This document shows positions 9,095-50,265 of a stretch of DNA of 59,128 nt, piece after piece. Position 1 is the first letter of the stretch. The number at the start of each line of letters is the position of its first letter. A program made the translations under genes and the position numbers. The DNA is from Bacillus sp. J33 (lineage in GTDB: Bacteria > Bacillota > Bacilli > Bacillales > Cytobacillaceae). The notes under the pieces were generated by a model. That model had not been told where the DNA came from. It made no database searches and was given only the letters and a program-made list of their open reading frames with translations. The stretch is from assembly GCF_000518885.1 (NCBI RefSeq), contig NZ_JAEL01000022.1, positions 1 to 59,128 of the forward strand, given 5' to 3'.

Positions 9095-10714
9095 TTGAAA
9101 GTGTTAATGATTTGTACAGAAAAGCTTCCGGTTCCGCCTGTGTTAGGTGGGGCCATTCAAACCTATATTTCCGGCAGTTTGCCTTATCTAAGCAAAGCGC
9201 ATGACGTTACAGTTTTAGGAGTCAGTGATCCATCGCTTCCAGAGGAGGAAACAATTGACGGTACCCATTATGTCCGTATCCCGGGAAAAGTATTTGAAAT
9301 ATACCGGGATGAAGTGGTGCGTTATCTTCAATCCAACCAATTCGACCTAATTCATATCTTTAATCGACCACGATTAGTTTTACCCGTCAGACAGGCATCT
9401 CCTAATTCAAAAATTACATTGAGCATGCATAACGATATGTTTAAACCAGAAAAGATCGACCCAAATGAGGCAAAAGCTGCAGTGGAGGAAGTCTCAAAAA
9501 TAGTAACCGTCAGTGATTATATCGGCAGTATCATCAGAAGCGAGTATCCTCAAGCCTCATCAAAAATTCGCACCATTTATTCAGGAGTTGATACGCACCG
9601 TTTTTTACCGGGGCATCACCCAAGGATGCAGAAAATCAGGAATGATATTCGCAGAGAGCACGGCTTAGAGAACAAGACAGTCATTTTATTTGCCGGCAGA
9701 CTTTCAAACAACAAAGGAGTCGATCGGTTAATTAGGGCAATACCGGGACTTGCCAAAAAATTTAATAATATAGCTGTGGTTATCGTTGGAAGTAAATGGT
9801 TTAGCCAAAATGATATCTCCGATTATATAGCCTATGTAAGAGCTTTGGCGAACAGACTGCCAGTACCAGTGGTAACAACAGGGTTTGTTTCTCCGAGTGA
9901 GATTCAAAACTGGTTTGCCGCAGCTGATCTTTTTGTTTGTACTTCGATATGGCAGGAACCTTTGGCTCGGGTACATTATGAAGCAATGGCTGCTGGCCTG
10001 CCAATCGTGACTACCGCAAGAGGCGGAAATCCTGAGGTCATTATTCCGGGAGAAAACGGTTTAGTTGTTAATAACCCGGAAGATCCCGCAAACTTTGAAG
10101 AAAAGATTACAGCAATACTAGCAAATAAGTCATTAATGAGAAGAATGGGTGAAAAAGGACGAGAGCTCGCTGTTTCCATTTATCAGTATAATCGGGTAGC
10201 TTCCGAGATATTGGAAGTTTGGGAGCAAGCAAGCCAAATGTCAATCGATGCGGGTATTTTTGACGAGACAGAGGCTTCCTTGGCTACAGAGGTTTTACAG
10301 GAGCAAATAACTGGTGACCAACAAAGCATGGAGCCTGCTGAGAAACCATCTGATTACCCTCCATATTCCATTCATATATTCCCCCGTCGAAGATCACAAA
10401 GCCATATCCGCGGGAAAGCAATACGGCACAGAGACGATGAATGCTATTCTGTGATGAGAGGCCCGATTTGTCAGGATGACATGCCGACTTTGAATAGAAA
10501 GCGGCACAGTGAAGAGGAAACCTACTCCGTTATGAAAGGCCCATATGATTCAGATGAATTTTCAAGAATGAATCGAAAGCGGAGCAGGGGAGAGGAAGCA
10601 TACTCCGTGATGAGAGGCCCATTTAGTCCAGACGACATACCTGCCATGAATAAAAAACGAAGGCGAGAAGAGGAAACCTACTCCGTAATGAGCGGCTCGA
10701 TTTTGACCGGATGA
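9095..10714 (+). CDS. cotSA: CotSA-like GT4 glycosyltransferase with C-terminal tandem repeat tail
   Basis: Residues 1 to about 385 form a complete GT4 glycosyltransferase (LKVLMICTEKLPVPPVLGGA, ILFAGRLSNNKGVDRLI, EPLARVHYEAMAAGLPIVTT) like B. subtilis CotSA (about 377 aa), the partner gene of cotS. I choose TTG 9095 because GGAAGGGAG lies upstream, 2 bp after the cotS stop; TTG 9074 overlaps cotS. Unlike CotSA of B. subtilis, the protein continues for about 150 residues. After an acidic linker there are 26-residue tandem repeats (78 bp) with the core EE-x-x-YSVM[RK]GP followed by DD-x-P-x-MN-[RK]KR. The repeat series continues past the stop in another frame (next entry), so the present C-terminus results from a frameshift. 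The mixed basic/acidic, Tyr-bearing repeats suggest a coat-matrix or cross-linking role; this is inference. Confidence 0.85.
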   Translation: MKVLMICTEKLPVPPVLGGAIQTYISGSLPYLSKAHDVTVLGVSDPSLPEEETIDGTHYVRIPGKVFEIYRDEVVRYLQSNQFDLIHIFNRPRLVLPVRQASPNSKITLSMHNDMFKPEKIDPNEAKAAVEEVSKIVTVSDYIGSIIRSEYPQASSKIRTIYSGVDTHRFLPGHHPRMQKIRNDIRREHGLENKTVILFAGRLSNNKGVDRLIRAIPGLAKKFNNIAVVIVGSKWFSQNDISDYIAYVRALANRLPVPVVTTGFVSPSEIQNWFAAADLFVCTSIWQEPLARVHYEAMAAGLPIVTTARGGNPEVIIPGENGLVVNNPEDPANFEEKITAILANKSLMRRMGEKGRELAVSIYQYNRVASEILEVWEQASQMSIDAGIFDETEASLATEVLQEQITGDQQSMEPAEKPSDYPPYSIHIFPRRRSQSHIRGKAIRHRDDECYSVMRGPICQDDMPTLNRKRHSEEETYSVMKGPYDSDEFSRMNRKRSRGEEAYSVMRGPFSPDDIPAMNKKRRREEETYSVMSGSILTG

Positions 10715-16625: not shown

Positions 16626-16747
16626 TATATAGTCCTCCAAGCTGTTTAAAATTTCTACTAACAACCATATAGAGACAGCGGAAGAAATGCAAGACTTTAC
16701 AGATTTCATTTTTAGGGCTAAGATGAAATCAGCCAACTTAATAGCTT

Positions 16748-16848
16748 TACTGCTAGGGGTGTCCGATGCGCGGACTGAGAAAGAAACCGATCTGTTTTTT
16801 ACCCTTCGGACCTGATCTGGATTATGCCAGCGTAGGAAAGTGGTATTT
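16748..16848 (+). ncRNA. TPP riboswitch upstream of thiMDE
   Basis: THI-box core is visible: CTAGGGGTGTCC, then CGGACTGAGA, ACCCTTCGGACCTGATCTGGATTATGCCAGCGTAGGAA is matched in order (split here: ACCCTT, CCTGATCTGGA, GCCAGCGTAGGAA). A terminator follows at 16882-16912, so TPP would cause premature termination. The first intact gene, thiM, starts 370 bp later, separated by a gene remnant. Confidence 0.92.
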
Positions 16849-16881
16849 GTAAAATAGTACGTATAGTCTCTTACATGAATC

Positions 16882-18046: not shown

Positions 18047-18877
18047 ATGAGAGTGACAAAAGCATTGACCATAGCTGGTTCAGACAGCGGAGGCGGGGCT
18101 GGCATACAGGCCGATTTAAAAACGTTCCAGGAACTTGGTGTTTATGGCATGTCTGCCTTAACCGCAGTTACCGCCCAAAATACAAGAGGCGTCCAGGGAG
18201 TTTTTCCAATGACAGCTGAGGCTGTGGTTGCACAAATCCGGTCTATAGGGGAAGACCTTAGGCCAGAAGCGATTAAGACAGGAATGCTTTTTAGTGCTGA
18301 AATTATCGAAAGAGTATCCCGTGAAATAATCCGTTATGACTGGGAAAATGTCGTCATTGATCCAGTCATGATCGCAAAAGGCGGAGCAAGCCTGCTTCAG
18401 AAAGAGGCGATTGATGCCATGAAGGAATTCCTAATTCCCCTTTCGATGGTGATCACCCCAAATATCCCGGAGGCTGAAGTACTAACAGGCCTTACGATCA
18501 AGTCAGATTCAGATAAAAAAGAAGCTGCAAGGAAACTGCACCGGATGGGGGCAAAGAACGTCATCATAAAAGGCGGCCATGACGAAGCAGAAGACATTGC
18601 TGCAGACCTATTATTTGATGGTGACAGTTTTATTGAGTTGAAGAGTGAGAGAATCCAGACGGCCAATACACACGGAACCGGCTGTACCTTTTCGGCTGCC
18701 ATCACTGCGGGGCTGGCTGATGGTCTAGATGTGCCGGAAGCTGTCAAAAGAGCAAAGAAGTTTATCCAAGCAGCTATAAAAGACGACTTGCAGATCGGAA
18801 GCGGTCATGGACCGACCAATCATTGGGCCTATAATAGGCAGCAAAAGGAGAACTTTGCACATGGCAGTAAATTCTGA
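18047..18877 (+). CDS. thiD: Hydroxymethylpyrimidine (phosphate) kinase
   Basis: Two-step kinase giving HMP-pyrophosphate for thiamine phosphate synthesis. The 276-aa ribokinase-fold protein shows TIAGSDSGGGAGIQADLKTF at the N-terminus, VIDPVMIAKGGASLL, and the anion-hole motif NTHGTGCTFSAAI containing the catalytic Cys. Second gene of the thiMDE operon; it overlaps thiE by 17 bp. Confidence 0.95.
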   Translation: MRVTKALTIAGSDSGGGAGIQADLKTFQELGVYGMSALTAVTAQNTRGVQGVFPMTAEAVVAQIRSIGEDLRPEAIKTGMLFSAEIIERVSREIIRYDWENVVIDPVMIAKGGASLLQKEAIDAMKEFLIPLSMVITPNIPEAEVLTGLTIKSDSDKKEAARKLHRMGAKNVIIKGGHDEAEDIAADLLFDGDSFIELKSERIQTANTHGTGCTFSAAITAGLADGLDVPEAVKRAKKFIQAAIKDDLQIGSGHGPTNHWAYNRQQKENFAHGSKF

Positions 18878-19538
18878 GGCGATAAGAAAGTTTTTGAGAG
18901 TTTATTTTATTATGGGGAGCGTAAATTGCCAAAAAGATCCCGAAGAGGTCCTTCTTGCAGCAATTAGAGGAGGCATCTCACTCTTTCAGTTCCGTGAAAA
19001 AGGCAATGCCTGTTTACAAGGGGAAGACAAGCTCCAGCTGGCAAAAAAGCTGCAAACAATCTGCAGGAATAACCAAATCCCTTTCATTGTAAATGATGAT
19101 ATAGAACTGGCATTAGAGATCGATGCGGATGGCGTCCATATTGGCCAGGAAGACGAATCTGCTGATATCGTACGCCAAAAAATCGGCAGCAAAATTCTTG
19201 GGGTCTCAGCACATAATTTGATTGAAGCAAGGAAAGCAATAGATGATGGTGCAGATTACCTTGGAATTGGGCCCATTTATCCGACTTCCACAAAGGAAGA
19301 CGCAAAAGCCGTGCAAGGGCACAGCTTTTTAAAAGAATTGAGAGCCTTGGATATCCAAATTCCTCTGGTTGGAATAGGAGGCATTACCGCTGAAAATGCG
19401 GCTCCAATAATCGGGGCGGGTGCAGACGGCGTTTCTGTCATCACAGCAATCAGCCAGGCAGAATCTCCGGAAGAATCAGCCCGGCTGCTATCCATTGCTG
19501 TACTAAATGAACTAAATGAACTAAAAAATGTCCATTAA
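18861..19538 (+). CDS. thiE: Thiamine phosphate synthase
   Basis: Couples HMP-pyrophosphate with thiazole phosphate. The 225-aa TIM barrel has ISLFQFREKG, FIVNDDIELALEIDADGVHIGQED, the GIGPIYPTSTK phosphate-site loop and VGIGGITAEN. I start it at ATG 18861, behind AAAAGGAG, inside the end of thiD; the longer frame from 18807 lacks a ribosome site. Last gene of the operon, followed by a terminator. Confidence 0.95.
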   Translation: MAVNSEAIRKFLRVYFIMGSVNCQKDPEEVLLAAIRGGISLFQFREKGNACLQGEDKLQLAKKLQTICRNNQIPFIVNDDIELALEIDADGVHIGQEDESADIVRQKIGSKILGVSAHNLIEARKAIDDGADYLGIGPIYPTSTKEDAKAVQGHSFLKELRALDIQIPLVGIGGITAENAAPIIGAGADGVSVITAISQAESPEESARLLSIAVLNELNELKNVH

Positions 19539-19630: not shown

Positions 19631-19744
19631 TATCATCAACTTCGGGCATTTTATCGTCAGCTCTGCGAAAAATAACATCATAAAAGCCATTTTATTATCA
19701 ACTTCTTTAATATATCATCAACTATGCCTCATATATCATCAACT
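19631..19744. repeat. Phased array A: six copies of TATCATCAACT every 20-21 bp
   Basis: Copies start at 19631, 19652, 19673, 19693, 19713 and 19734: TATCATCAACT, TATCGTCAGCT, TAACATCATAA, TATTATCAACT, TATCATCAACT, TATCATCAACT. The 9-10-bp linkers are A/T-rich and often carry GC or GCC about 2-3 bp after the motif. The steps 21, 21, 20, 20, 21 equal two turns of B-DNA, so all copies face the same side. It is non-coding and lies in the 390-bp spacer 19539-19930. An equivalent array lies at 33203-33315. Function unknown. Confidence 0.8.
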
Positions 19745-24272: not shown

Positions 24273-24330
24273 AATTTCTGGAAAAGATTCTTTATTTTTG
24301 CTATAATTCTATTGAATTTAATAGAAAGGT

Positions 24331-24423
24331 TTTCTAGGGTTCCGCAGCACATTGCTGGACTGGTCCGAGAGAAAACTCATAGCTTTTGCAGCTATGCCAC
24401 GGAAGGACAAAAGCCTGGGAGAT
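24331..24423 (+). ncRNA. Guanidine-I riboswitch (ykkC class)
   Basis: Conserved blocks in order: CTAGGGTTCCG (24334-24344), CTGGTCCGAGAGAAAAC, and CACGGAAGGACAAAAGCC-TGGGAGA. The 3' part overlaps a perfect terminator (24412-24460), consistent with the known mechanism in which guanidinium binding prevents termination. The controlled genes are an SMR pair, as expected for guanidinium export. Confidence 0.93.
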
Positions 24424-31893: not shown

Positions 31894-33084
31894 TTATTTA
31901 AATAGCTGTGGAATGCCATTTATTAAAGAATATACACCCATGTATGACATGGCAATAACGATAACTATACCAAAGAGTGTCATCCAAAGCGGATGCTTAT
32001 AATCGCCGACAATTTTTGTTTTGTATGCTGCAACAAGCATGACACCCAATGCAATCGGCAAAATTAATCCATTTAGTGAACCAACTAATACGAGTATTTT
32101 TACTGGTTTGCCGATGATGACAAATACAAGAGTGGATATAGCGATAAACGCAACAATAAGCCATTTATGGTATTTTTCCAGTGTAGGGCTGAACGTACGG
32201 ATGAACGAAACAGACGTATAAGCTGCGCCAACCACGGATGTAACAGCAGCGGCCCACATAACAACCCCGAAAATTTTATAGCCTATGTTGCCCGCTGCCA
32301 ATTGGAAAACGGAAGCAGGCGGGTTGGAAGGATCAAGTGCAAGCCCCTGGGAAACCACACCCAAAGCAGCTAAGAATAGGAAGATTCGCATAATGGAAGC
32401 GATCCCGATTGCACTAATGGAGCTTTTGGTTACTTCAGGAAGGGCTTCTTTTCCTTTTACACCCGCGTCTATCAAACGATGTCCGCCAGCGAAAGTAATA
32501 TAACCGCCAACTGTTCCGCCTACTAAAGTAATAATAGCTAGAATATCAATTTTATCGGGAACAAAGGTTTTGGCGACAGCTTCGCCAACCGGGGGCTGGG
32601 CCGTGAACATAACATATATGGTAAGGCCAATCATGACAAAGCCTAATATTTGAGTAAAGCGGTCCATCAGTCTTCCAGCTTCTTTTACAATAAAGATTCC
32701 TATTGCCAGAATTCCGCTCAGCAAAGCTCCCATTTCAGGAGAGATGCCGAAAATAACATTGGTTCCCAAACCCGCACCTGCAATATTTCCAATATTAAAA
32801 GCCAAACCGCCCATTACAATCAGGGCAGCCAGGAAATAGCCAAGCCCAGGCAAGATATCGTTTGCAATATCCTGTGCCCGCTTCTCGGAAACCGCAATAA
32901 TCCGCCAAATATTCATTTGTGCTCCAATATCAATAATAATCGATACTAATATAACAAAGCCGAAGCTAGCCAGGAGCGTTTCAGTAAATACAGTTGTTTG
33001 TGTCAGGAACCCGGGCCCGATGGCTGATGTAGCCATCAGGAACGCGGCACCCAGCAAAAGACTTGCATTTGATTGCTTTTTCAC
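31894..33084 (-). CDS. ycsG: NRAMP-family transporter (YcsG-like)
   Basis: 396 aa, about eleven helices. Helix-1-like segment ATSAIGPGFLTQTTVF carries the NRAMP DPG variant lacking the metal-ligand Asp/Asn, as in the YcsG branch linked to 5-oxoprolinase genes; it may therefore carry an organic substrate or another ion instead of Mn2+. GTG start behind GGGGGAAAATGA. Position between pxpA and ycsI as in B. subtilis; it is separated from pxpA by repeat array B. Confidence 0.82.
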   Translation of the reverse strand: MKKQSNASLLLGAAFLMATSAIGPGFLTQTTVFTETLLASFGFVILVSIIIDIGAQMNIWRIIAVSEKRAQDIANDILPGLGYFLAALIVMGGLAFNIGNIAGAGLGTNVIFGISPEMGALLSGILAIGIFIVKEAGRLMDRFTQILGFVMIGLTIYVMFTAQPPVGEAVAKTFVPDKIDILAIITLVGGTVGGYITFAGGHRLIDAGVKGKEALPEVTKSSISAIGIASIMRIFLFLAALGVVSQGLALDPSNPPASVFQLAAGNIGYKIFGVVMWAAAVTSVVGAAYTSVSFIRTFSPTLEKYHKWLIVAFIAISTLVFVIIGKPVKILVLVGSLNGLILPIALGVMLVAAYKTKIVGDYKHPLWMTLFGIVIVIAMSYMGVYSLINGIPQLFK

Positions 33085-33202: not shown

Positions 33203-33315
33203 TATCGCCAACTTTGCAAAAAATATCATCAACTTTGCCTATATATCGTCAACTAAGCATTTTTATCATCAGCTTTTGCCAAATTTCATCAACTCAGGCC
33301 AAAATATCATCAACT
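33203..33315. repeat. Phased array B: six copies of TATCATCAACT every 20-21 bp
   Basis: Copies at 33203 TATCGCCAACT, 33224 TATCATCAACT, 33244 TATCGTCAACT, 33264 TATCATCAGCT, 33284 TTTCATCAACT, 33305 TATCATCAACT. Steps are 21, 20, 20, 20, 21; the linkers mostly read NNGCC followed by A/T. Same motif, orientation relative to the window, copy number and phasing as array A (19631-19744). It fills the pxpA-ycsG spacer of the minus-strand operon, so it would be transcribed as AGTTGATGATA repeats. Confidence 0.82.
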
Positions 33316-33332: not shown

Positions 33333-34103
33333 TCATCTCAAAAAATCACTAATTTTTGCTACCTTAATCCCTGCATCCTTCAGAGCAGTTGGGATATATT
33401 TAGCAAATTCAAGTGCGCTTTCACCGTCCCCGTGAATGCATATTGTGTTGGCTTCTATAGAAACTTCCGTACCTTGAATAGAAGTCACTTTACCTTCCTT
33501 AACCATTCGGATCACTTGGTTGACCGCAGCAGTATGATCTGTGATGAGCGCATTGCTTTCCCTCCTTGAAGTCAGCGTGCCATCCTCCTGGTATGTGCGG
33601 TCGGAAAAAACTTCATGGGCAGAGCGGAGACCAAGCTTTTTGCCGGCTTTGACTAGTTCACTTCCAGCGAGTCCGAATAAAATTAATTCAGGATCCACTT
33701 TGTAAACTGCCTCGGCAATTGCCTCTGAAAGGGAGGCGCTTTTGGAGGCCATATTAAACAATGCTCCATGAGGCTTCACATGCTGAAGCTGTCCGCCCTC
33801 TGATTTAACAAAAGCATGCAAAGCGCCGATTTGATAAACCACAAGATCATAAGCTTCCTGGGGTGTAATGCTCATTTCCCGCCGGCCAAAGCCTGAAAGG
33901 TCCTGTAAACCAGGATGAACGCCGATGCCAACATTCTTTTTCAAAGCCATCTGTACCGTTTTCCTCATTGTTGCAGGGTCTCCAGCGTGGAAGCCGCACG
34001 CAATATTGGCAGAAGTGATATAATCCAGGATTTCCTCATCCCGTCCCATCTTATATGCTCCAAAGCTTTCACCCATATCACAATTAATATCCACAATATG
34101 CAT
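33333..34103 (-). CDS. pxpA: 5-oxoprolinase subunit A
   Basis: LamB/YcsF family, 256 aa. Seen: [16 protein letters not shown] at the N-terminus, [30 protein letters not shown] and [10 protein letters not shown] with the conserved His/Asp set. With PxpB and PxpC it forms the ATP-dependent prokaryotic 5-oxoprolinase that opens 5-oxoproline to glutamate. ATG 34103 follows AGGAGGAATTTCA; the longer frame to 34163 overlaps pxpC. Third gene of the operon. Confidence 0.93.
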
Positions 34104-34114
34104 TGAAATTCCTC

Positions 34115-35116
34115 CTATCTGGTTTTCAAATGTATTCCTTGTTTTAATTCCTTCAGTTTCCATTCCCTGTTGAGATATAACCGCTGAGCCTCTTCATGCG
34201 AAATCTCTGTAAACCTTAAGGTATCACCTGGCTTGGCCTGCGCAAGCAGCGGAAGATCGACATAAGCCACTTGACCGATTTTAGGATAGCCTCCTGTTGT
34301 TTGCCTATCGGCGAGCAAAACGATTGGATTGCCATCCGGCGGAACTTGAATGGATCCGAAATTGACTGCTTCGGAAATTAATTCCGCCGGCTCTTTCAAT
34401 GAAAGGAAAGGGCCCTTTAGCCTGTAACCCATTCTGTCTGACTGGGGAGTTACTTTAAAAGAAGCTTCAAAAAGGCTTGACCGGCTGTCCTTTGAAAATA
34501 ATTCATATTGCCGGCCTTTCACGATCCGGATGACTGTATTGGACTCGAAAGCAGGGATGAGCTCTGCCGTGATAGACCAATCATTCTCTATAAAGGATTC
34601 ATGCTCTAAATGATGAGATAAATAGTCCATCATTTTTCCCGATAATTCTGATGCTGCATCCAATTCAAGCAGGTCCCCAGCTTTTATTGCCCGTCCATTA
34701 TAGCCCCCAATGCCAGCTCGAAGGTAGGTTGATTTGCTTTTCATGACTTCTGGGACGGAAATTCCGCCAGCTACAGCCAAATACGCCCGGCATCCTTGCC
34801 GGCAATGCCCGAATTTGAGTTCACTTCCTTTTTTTACAAAGACCGACCTCCAAGAGCGGACGGGCTTGCCATTTATTTCAGGACTTAAATCCCCGCCGCA
34901 AATTGAGATTAGGGCGTCTTTTTCGAAAGTGACCGTTGGCCCCAGCATCGTTATTTCCAAAGCAGGTTCATTTCCATCGTTTCCTGTCAGCAGATTCGCT
35001 ACTCGATGAGAAAGAGGATCCATGCAACCGCTGGCAATCACTCCAAACTTTTGGAACCCGGTTCTTCCCAAATCCTGTATGCTGGAAAGGAGGCCCGGCT
35101 TTTCAATTTTCAGCAT
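34115..35116 (-). CDS. pxpC: 5-oxoprolinase subunit C (KipA family)
   Basis: 333 aa biotin-dependent-carboxylase-like domain: [61 protein letters not shown] and [14 protein letters not shown] are family hallmarks. Known as KipA in B. subtilis. Its ATG overlaps the pxpB stop (ATGCTGA region), implying coupling. Confidence 0.93.
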
Positions 35117-36317: not shown

Positions 36318-36475
36318 GGCTTCAGTCCCTCCTTTTGGGTTTGGCTTTGCATTACTGTCTTTTCCACGATTTTAGAAAAATAAAACATTTTGGCAATAAC
36401 AAAAGCGCCTACAAAAATATAGAAATTAATGATAAGATAAAGTGATAGCTAAATAGAAATCCGTATGCCTACGGT

Positions 36476-36509
36476 AGAGGTTCTAGCTACCCTCTTTAAA
36501 AAACTAAGG
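36476..36509 (+). ncRNA. preQ1-I riboswitch upstream of queCDE
   Basis: AGAGGTTCTAGCTACCCTCT then TTAAAAAACTAAGG matches the class I consensus (P1 AGAGG/CCTCT, loop TTCTAGCTAC, A-rich tail ending in AACTAAGG). A terminator follows at 36513-36545 whose arm CTTAG can pair with CTAAG of the aptamer tail. Confidence 0.93.
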
Positions 36510-36512
36510 AAA

Positions 36513-36545
36513 ACAGGTCTGCTTTCTTAGTAGTCCTGTTTTTCT
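36513..36545 (+). terminator. preQ1-controlled terminator
   Basis: ACAGGTCTGC...GTAGTCCTGT followed by TTTTCT; expression platform of the preQ1-I riboswitch. Confidence 0.75.
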
Positions 36546-43227: not shown

Positions 43228-43456
43228 AGGACTCTTTTCGTAAGTTTGTTGTTTTTTGAAGGCAAACTTAGTTTATCGAACTGAGTTGATTGCAGCGGAG
43301 CACACTTGACTCCTCCTCAGAAGAGAGGGAAGAGGGAGACCCCACAGGCGAAGCCAAGGAGGCACTCATTCCTCCCCGCGGAGATCAATTGTCCCGTGCT
43401 GAAATCAACGGGCAAAGTTTATAAACTAAAACAACAATCTATGAGAAAAGAGCCAA
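43228..43456. repeat. Bacillaceae-type intergenic palindromic repeat element
   Basis: About 230 bp with long imperfect terminal inverted repeats: GACTCTTTTCGTAAG and GTTTGTTGTTTT at the left against AAAACAACAATC and ATGAGAAAAGAGCC at the right. The centre carries GAACTGAGTTGATTG, GAGACCCCACAGGCG, GAGGCACTCATTCCTCC and CCGCGGA, blocks I recognise from an abundant non-coding repeat of Bacillus-group genomes. It contains no transposase and is best described as a MITE-like structured element. Confidence 0.7.
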
Positions 43457-43460
43457 AAAT

Positions 43461-43493
43461 AAAGCTGCAAACCAGTGCGGTTTGCAGCTTTTA
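43461..43493. terminator. Strong hairpin beside the repeat element
   Basis: AAAGCTGCAAACC-agtgc-GGTTTGCAGCTTT, perfect 13-bp stem with a T-run. Confidence 0.85.
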
Positions 43494-50084: not shown

Positions 50085-50140
50085 TGCTTTCCATCGGCAA
50101 AAATATAATTTATACTAATAACGACCTATTTTAATAACGC

Positions 50141-50229
50141 TGCCACAAGGGGAGCATTTTGCTGAGAGTGAACAGACCTCTGTTCTGACCCTTTGAACCT
50201 GTTAGATAATGCTAGCGCAGGAATGTGGA
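50141..50229 (+). ncRNA. TPP riboswitch upstream of thiT
   Basis: GCCACAAGGGGAGC, GCTGAGAGTGAA, ACCCTTTGAACCTGTTAGATAATGC (split: ACCCTTTGAACCTG, TAGATAATGC) and AGCGCAGGAATGTGG appear in order, with P1 formed by CCACA/TGTGG. A terminator follows at 50236. Second TPP switch of the window. Confidence 0.95.
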
Positions 50230-50235
50230 ATAAAA

Positions 50236-50265
50236 GGCAGAAGGCACCCTTCTGCCTGCTTGTTC
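50236..50265 (+). terminator. Riboswitch-controlled terminator before thiT
   Basis: GGCAGAAGG-cac-CCTTCTGCC followed by TGCTTGTTCT. Confidence 0.75.

Follow-up and report, generated by a model that had tools for sequence, protein, structure and literature searches.

A six-copy repeat downstream of a PxpA gene belongs to a larger class of intergenic arrays spaced by whole helix turns

REP/BIME elements are bound by gyrase and are located at the 3′ ends of genes. It has been reported that RemA of Bacillus subtilis forms an octamer ring proposed to wrap DNA, and that its target contains at least six AT-rich protected sites of 7 bp, placed 3 bp apart and with modest sequence conservation; LrpC octamers are also named in the available part of that account (PMC8481266). 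In TIGR arrays, as the available text of PMC12045711 describes them, the repeats are bounded by UG and CCA boxes.

The locus considered here is array B, a series of six AGTTGATGATA-like units at positions 33203–33315 on the minus strand of the window, that is, of the whole stretch of 59,128 nucleotides from Bacillus sp. J33 that was analysed. The unit starts and the steps between them (21, 20, 20, 20 and 21 bp) were recovered, which confirms the original prediction of a six-copy phased repeat at this place. Two of the six motifs are exact copies of AGTTGATGATA (mismatches of 0, 1, 1, 1, 0 and 2 in unit order). The array starts 17 bp past the PxpA stop codon and has the same sense as both neighbouring genes, and Tandem Repeats Finder reported it as 33203–33254 only.

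31894–33084, minus strand: Nramp-family transporter gene, downstream of array B (called ycsG in the original prediction)
33203–33315, minus strand: array B, six units of an 11-nt motif and a 9–10-nt linker; minus-strand unit starts at 33315, 33294, 33274, 33254, 33234 and 33213
33305–33315, minus strand: motif of unit 1, exact
33284–33294, minus strand: motif of unit 2, 1 mismatch
33264–33274, minus strand: motif of unit 3, 1 mismatch
33244–33254, minus strand: motif of unit 4, 1 mismatch
33224–33234, minus strand: motif of unit 5, exact
33203–33213, minus strand: motif of unit 6, 2 mismatches
33333–34163, minus strand: PxpA gene (LamB/YcsF family), upstream of array B

A second array of the same family, array A, is present in the window.

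18807–19538, plus strand: thiE, upstream of array A in window order
19631–19744, minus strand: array A, same family as array B, antisense to its neighbours

Array A has three exact units, one unit with 1 mismatch, another with 2 and a decayed one with 4; the last two were read by eye, and automated chaining joined three units only. Tandem Repeats Finder reported nothing at this array, and neither array A nor array B was matched by Rfam. The geometry of array A is that of array B with one unit decayed, and the first description, of independent arrays that agree in motif and phasing, is supported. The common orientation described for the two arrays holds in the window, where both lie on the minus strand, and does not hold relative to the genes, array B being sense and array A antisense, to thiE as well as to the ORF that follows. 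In the whole window there are 11 matches to AGTTGATGATA at no more than 1 mismatch, against 1.49 expected and with none of 100 shuffles reaching 11, and two of the 11 (30778 and 46396) are lone sites outside both arrays.

Elsewhere in the window, riboswitches were found at 16745–16855 (TPP), 24323–24423 (guanidine-I), 36471–36513 (PreQ1) and 50138–50240 (a second TPP), and a tandem repeat with a period of 78, 3.4 copies and 70% matches lies at 10429–10696. At about 43230–43465 there is a dispersed element of ~230 bp, an imperfect palindrome that folds at −77.8 kcal/mol and looks MITE-like; it has 38 further BLAST matches in the fetched loci at 73–88% identity, some of them being pieces of one copy.

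Array B is a member of a dispersed family; the window's genome has at least 14 of its arrays, A and B included, with further ones on contigs C50, C66, C117, C123, C131, C148, C158, C177, C183, C188, C190 and C192. The two-motif pattern gave 26 matches in this whole genome and its reversed control pattern none; it was present in 7 of 151 genomes, belonging to two genera, and again in 7 when 193 genomes were searched family-wide. A stricter generic pattern of three units occurred in 7 of the 193 family genomes and, of 398 genomes across the phylum, in the window's own only. Exact matches were found in the records of Bacillus canaveralius M4.6, Bacillus sp. V3-13 and one titled Pseudomonas sp. 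ISL-84. As the arrays form a dispersed family, the earlier proposal of selection or a replicating repeat is supported. No description of such arrays came up in the open-licence PubMed Central literature, which was searched for arrays that are phased, helical, of 52 bp or dispersed between genes, for links to REP and gyrase or to LrpC, and for the letters of the motif.

The most frequent array form in this genome has five units, and among 22 five-unit arrays of the clade closest to the window the first motif lies 81 bp from the last in 12 and 82 bp in 7. Four loci of genus g10 show the step pattern 20, 21, 20, 21, 19, 21, 20, 21 (L076, L077, L081 and L091, two of them orthologous), in whose arrays the linker types alternate and the linkers recur as types, and the same genus has two arrays with 17–18 units. 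Moreover, the same spacing occurs with other letters: a sequence-only model built from 12 arrays of the window's own genus gave matches in 22 of the 36 genomes of the genus at E ≤ 0.001, several of them weak, and the examples fetched from these matches include congener arrays of AGTCGCYGATATAT, AGTGGCGGATATATTGAAAA, AGTTGCGGATATATCTCAAA and AGTGACCGATATAT, the AGTGGCGGATATATTGAAAA array having nine identical motifs in 20-bp steps.

That is to say, the six-copy repeat belongs to a larger class of intergenic arrays that are spaced by whole helix turns and differ in their letters. A top GC/AT spectral peak at 9.8–10.8 bp was recorded for 35 of 46 array spacers, against 60 among 423 other spacers and 42 among 501 coding stretches. 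Of the strongest of these other spacers, several contain phased arrays built on different motifs, for example CGCTTAATT, TACCGGCCAAA and CGCACATAAA. The matches of a first motif-free lag scan concentrate at 20–21, 40–42, 52 and 60–62 bp. A lag scan of 471 spacers, a small sample from 20-kb chunks chosen regardless of arrays with genes called by ORF length, gave 9 hits at lags 20–21, 19 at 51–52, 7 at 40–42, 6 at 60–63 and 8 over 35 other lags; 14 own-genome chunks in this sample come from three contigs that carry family arrays elsewhere, and genomes G028 and G018 were included for having arrays. The same scan of E. coli K-12 gave none in 51 spacers. Counted by spacer, two-turn lags, lags of 51–52 bp and exclusively other lags were found in 4, 8 and 5 of 202 spacers of the own genus, in 6, 4 and 0 of 114 spacers from other genera of the family, and in 0, 5 and 3 of 155 spacers from other families; periods of ~20–21 bp and their multiples are thus seen in the own family of genera only, and those of 51–52 bp also in other families. 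A looser second lag scan gave 110 matches, 40 of them at other lags. At least two of the 21-bp lag matches resemble coding heptads, and TGTGGATAA repeats, presumably DnaA boxes, occur in at least two of the 31-bp matches.

Exact 52-bp intergenic tandem arrays with differing letters, several of whose units have inverted arms, were observed in the own genus, in other genera and in other families:

L248:9334–9920: 52-bp tandem array
L249:11968–12478: 52-bp tandem array
L265:6330–7102: 52-bp tandem array
L271:18405–18895: 52-bp tandem array
L296:11565–12045: 52-bp tandem array
L297:12101–13366: 52-bp tandem array

The helical-pitch harmonic is the strongest one in 15 of 20 arrays with 20–21-bp steps and in 10 of 17 arrays with 52-bp steps. 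From the former, L241 and L281, which look coding, L064, L226 and L227, which resemble the AGTNGMNGATA family, and the terminator-like L057 were dropped by eye, and from the latter four of the 17, which are apparent relatives of others; in the strict sets obtained in this way, the harmonic is strongest in 12 of 14 (null 26%, p = 6e-6) and in 6 of 13 (null 13%, p = 0.004), the nulls being Markov-made tandem units. The GC/AT alternation in the arrays favours about 10.3 bp, and the GC/AT spectrum over 58 arrays peaks at 10.1 bp, so AT-rich sites recur every ~10 bp, as looked for in targets of RemA or LrpC; likewise, the whole-turn periods looked for in phased bending or wrapping sites were found in the 20–21-bp steps and in the lag scan. 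All 15 long PxpA-transporter spacers peak at 9.8–10.7 bp but represent two sequence clusters only, 5 shorter spacers and those without a delimiting start signal being left out of this set. The AGTTGATGATA consensus unit is unremarkable when taken alone, with an equally strong 10-bp harmonic in 16% of random units, and therefore the helical case rests on the set of arrays and not on the AGTTGATGATA family.

Whole-turn periods and a 10-bp alternation in unrelated letters suggest that the double helix itself is under constraint, be it for bending, wrapping or an in-phase protein lattice. Based on these regularities of sequence, it is tentatively proposed that array B belongs to one of several families of helically phased repeat arrays whose role may be architectural, namely the bending or wrapping of DNA by a candidate protein that would bind by shape and phase, a reading that comes close to being probable without reaching it. 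AT-rich and GC-rich blocks alternate every ~10.1–10.4 bp and the motif returns every two turns on one face of the helix, and such a phased alternation could make the double helix easy to bend or wrap. The candidate binder, such as a RemA-type octamer ring, an LrpC-type octamer or, as an alternative, gyrase, would read shape and phase more than exact letters, and the letters change as whole units come and go and as all the units in an array alter in concert. The data show that the arrays are dispersed and intergenic, that their geometry is fixed, that they have no significant orientation bias, and that helical periods and a 10-bp GC/AT alternation are preferred; that they bend or wrap DNA, which protein binds them and what they do for the cell is inferred. 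RemA would fit in kind as a candidate binder, and eight contacts of about 10.1 bp amount to 81 bp, the usual span of the arrays, which for a RemA-type ring may be no more than a numerical coincidence. A more specific form, in which these unrecognised arrays of diverse sequence, at two or five helical turns, would be nucleosome-like wrapping sites for an octameric protein, with 81 bp as about one wrap of eight 10-bp contacts and with the shape conserved while the letters turn over, is considered unlikely. Counted against wrapping are the 40 of 110 looser-scan matches at other lags, the 0 of 155 two-turn spacers in other families, the ordinary consensus unit, and three observations given below, that is, a deficit of divergent spacers that weakens in subsets, indels in the motifs of array B in genome G002 and its loss in G012. 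Should repeats of unrelated letters indeed have helical periods in common, these bacteria may retain some of their non-coding DNA for its shape; if the proposal is true, it would provide a computable map of where the bacterial chromosome wraps or absorbs torsion, as well as natural test substrates for DNA-wrapping proteins of poor sequence preference, e.g., RemA and LrpC.

The main rival to the wrapping reading is that of neutral or selfish self-amplifying repeats, which would be spread by copying, change in length through slippage and unequal exchange, and survive where they are least harmful, the helical periods resulting from how duplications arise; this is possible, though on the doubtful side. 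It is favoured by the way in which the arrays change. Whole units are gained and lost between orthologous arrays, and at one orthologous site all five units differ in concert, being AGTTGCTAATA-like in G002 and G009 (L173:4034–4126 and L165:4067–4159) and AGTTGATGATA-like in G012 at L093:9899–9990; a second locus, G000 versus G002 (L060, L215), looks alike in its contrast. The PxpA-transporter spacer was compared at 30 loci, the gene being present in 35 genomes: the array is found in G000, G009, G002 (with indels inside the motifs) and G030 and is lacking in G012, where the spacer is short, and more distant congeners have a short spacer or other repeats. A clean insertion boundary, by which the original prediction proposed to recognise a mobile repeat, was not found in these alignments, since the one array-less spacer (G012) has lost the array together with most of its length and has no clean edge. 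Neutrality also agrees with the weak avoidance of divergent spacers. Of the 70 arrays with ORFs on both sides, tandem spacers account for 41, convergent ones for 23 and divergent ones for 6, a count that contains orthologues and two probable coding repeats (L068:10748–10884, inside an ORF, and the similar L179:3589–3662) and from which 17 arrays with no ORF called on one side were dropped; the share of 6 in 70 compares with 117 divergent among 423 array-free spacers (p = 0.0003, rows including orthologues), and in two less redundant subsets the deficit gives p = 0.049 and 0.22.

The rates of change are divided between these readings. In the more distant pairs of 12 orthologous groups, changed columns amount to 132 of 788 in the motif, 193 of 529 in the linker and 545 of 1718 in the flank, and in the closest pair, G002–G009, to 50 of 420, 55 of 274 and 135 of 946, respectively; the pairs share sequences and are not independent, and two more aligned groups (14 and 15) are outside this count. 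Motif and linker differ in the closest pair (p = 0.005), and motif and flank do not (p = 0.27). Equal drift of motif and linker, named at the outset as evidence against the original prediction, was thus not observed, and the interpretation given there is partly supported: the motif changes more slowly than the linker, yet as fast as the flank in the closest pair, and array B carries the motif indels in G002. The motif letters may be moderately constrained, or the units of an array may be homogenised, and both would give a motif slower than its linkers; as homogenisation could produce the same bias, selection on array B is not established. Neutrality leaves the faster change of the linkers unexplained, although homogenisation may account for it, and neutrality alone does not explain helical periods and a 10-bp GC/AT alternation across unrelated letters.

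In distant congeners (L101, L102 and L112), the spacer after the PxpA gene holds a palindromic repeat of ~52 bp, AGTGCCGTT...AATGGCACT, and a strict pattern for this sister-clade repeat was found in 1 of 36 genomes.

An operator array, in which one protein recognises AGTNGMNGATA and binds cooperatively on one face of the helix, would agree with the conservation of motif letters relative to linkers and with the two-turn spacing, and is nevertheless improbable, as motif variants and unrelated motifs of the same geometry coexist within one genome and the flanking genes are mixed. Only three neighbour pairs are shared across lineages, and all three involve one protein family of ~320 aa. This family adjoins arrays in G000, G002 and, at ~59% identity, G044 of another genus (L060:8884–9840, L084:8880–9848 and L215:4255–5211).

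Very improbable is an RNA element, that is, a transcript whose AGUUGAUGAUA units would be read by a small RNA or an RNA-binding protein. In its favour, array B has the same sense as its two neighbours, and a few arrays (L068, L079 and L091) fold better than controls, with shuffle z below −3; on the other side, 24 arrays in the 41 tandem spacers are sense and 17 antisense, without significant bias (p = 0.35), array A is antisense to its neighbours, the mean fold z over 44 arrays comes to −0.09 relative to swapped linkers and −0.54 relative to shuffled ones, i.e., no average change, and helical periods would be unexpected for a role in RNA. The earlier suggestion that the transcribed copy of the units matters is therefore unsupported, and the lack of orientation bias and of a general fold signal argues that the arrays are a feature of double-stranded DNA. 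RNA hairpins from pairing of alternate linkers, plausible by eye in L079 and L083, were rejected, as controls over the 44 arrays gave no general signal. A coding reading was rejected as well, because stops in the motif cut the forward frames and steps of 20 are not multiples of a codon; reverse-strand ORFs over some arrays are expected, since the reversed motif has no stop. Phage origin was likewise rejected: the two-motif pattern occurred in 7 viral contigs, of which four were resolved as pairs or, in one contig, as a coding-looking three-unit repeat, and the other three showed none.

A relict or orphaned array of the RNA-guided TIGR type, suggested by direct repeats of ~11 nt with linkers of 8–11 nt whose types alternate in genus g10, has next to no chance of being right, as the Nop domain PF01798 was found in 0 of 5 array-bearing genomes searched, AGTTGATGATA lacks the UG...CCA boxes given in the available text of PMC12045711, and the linkers recur as types.

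Compared with known systems, the arrays resemble TIGR arrays, as far as the available part of PMC12045711 shows, in their short direct repeats and short spacers of alternating type, and differ from them in having no Nop/Tas gene and no box motifs and in that the copies are scattered. With the TAACTGA heptamer repeats of Beggiatoaceae and Cyanobacteria they share dispersed intergenic direct repeats and a patchy taxonomic distribution, whereas the heptamers, in the accessible text of PMC4679880, are contiguous with a period of 7, and most of those in the main genome sit immediately upstream of a start codon, in one orientation. REP/BIME elements, in the part of PMC3733652 that is available, are likewise dispersed short intergenic repeats with many copies, near the 3′ ends of genes and with a proposed role in supercoiling. 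Unlike REP/BIME, the arrays have no palindromic hairpin unit and consist of direct repeats every two turns; unlike REP/RAYT, they are present in G009 and G028, which are without a Y1 transposase match. REP/BIME with RAYT was rejected on the grounds that the 44 arrays give no mean fold signal and that PF01797 is missing in 3 of 8 genomes searched; G009 and G028, which lack it, have many array-model matches, and the window's own genome has it. The window begins with the end of a Y1 transposase (7–111) at the contig edge, and the genome has 16 Y1_Tnp matches, several at contig ends. RemA sites lie upstream of promoters and, in the available text of PMC8481266, are not described as dispersed repeat families, in which they differ from the arrays. 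The helically phased A-tracts of prokaryotic genomes, according to the accessible part of PMC3940949, have in common with the arrays an AT signal of 10–11 bp period that is linked to DNA curvature, and what sets the arrays apart is that this signal is carried in discrete repeated units, in dispersed families and in a fixed architecture.
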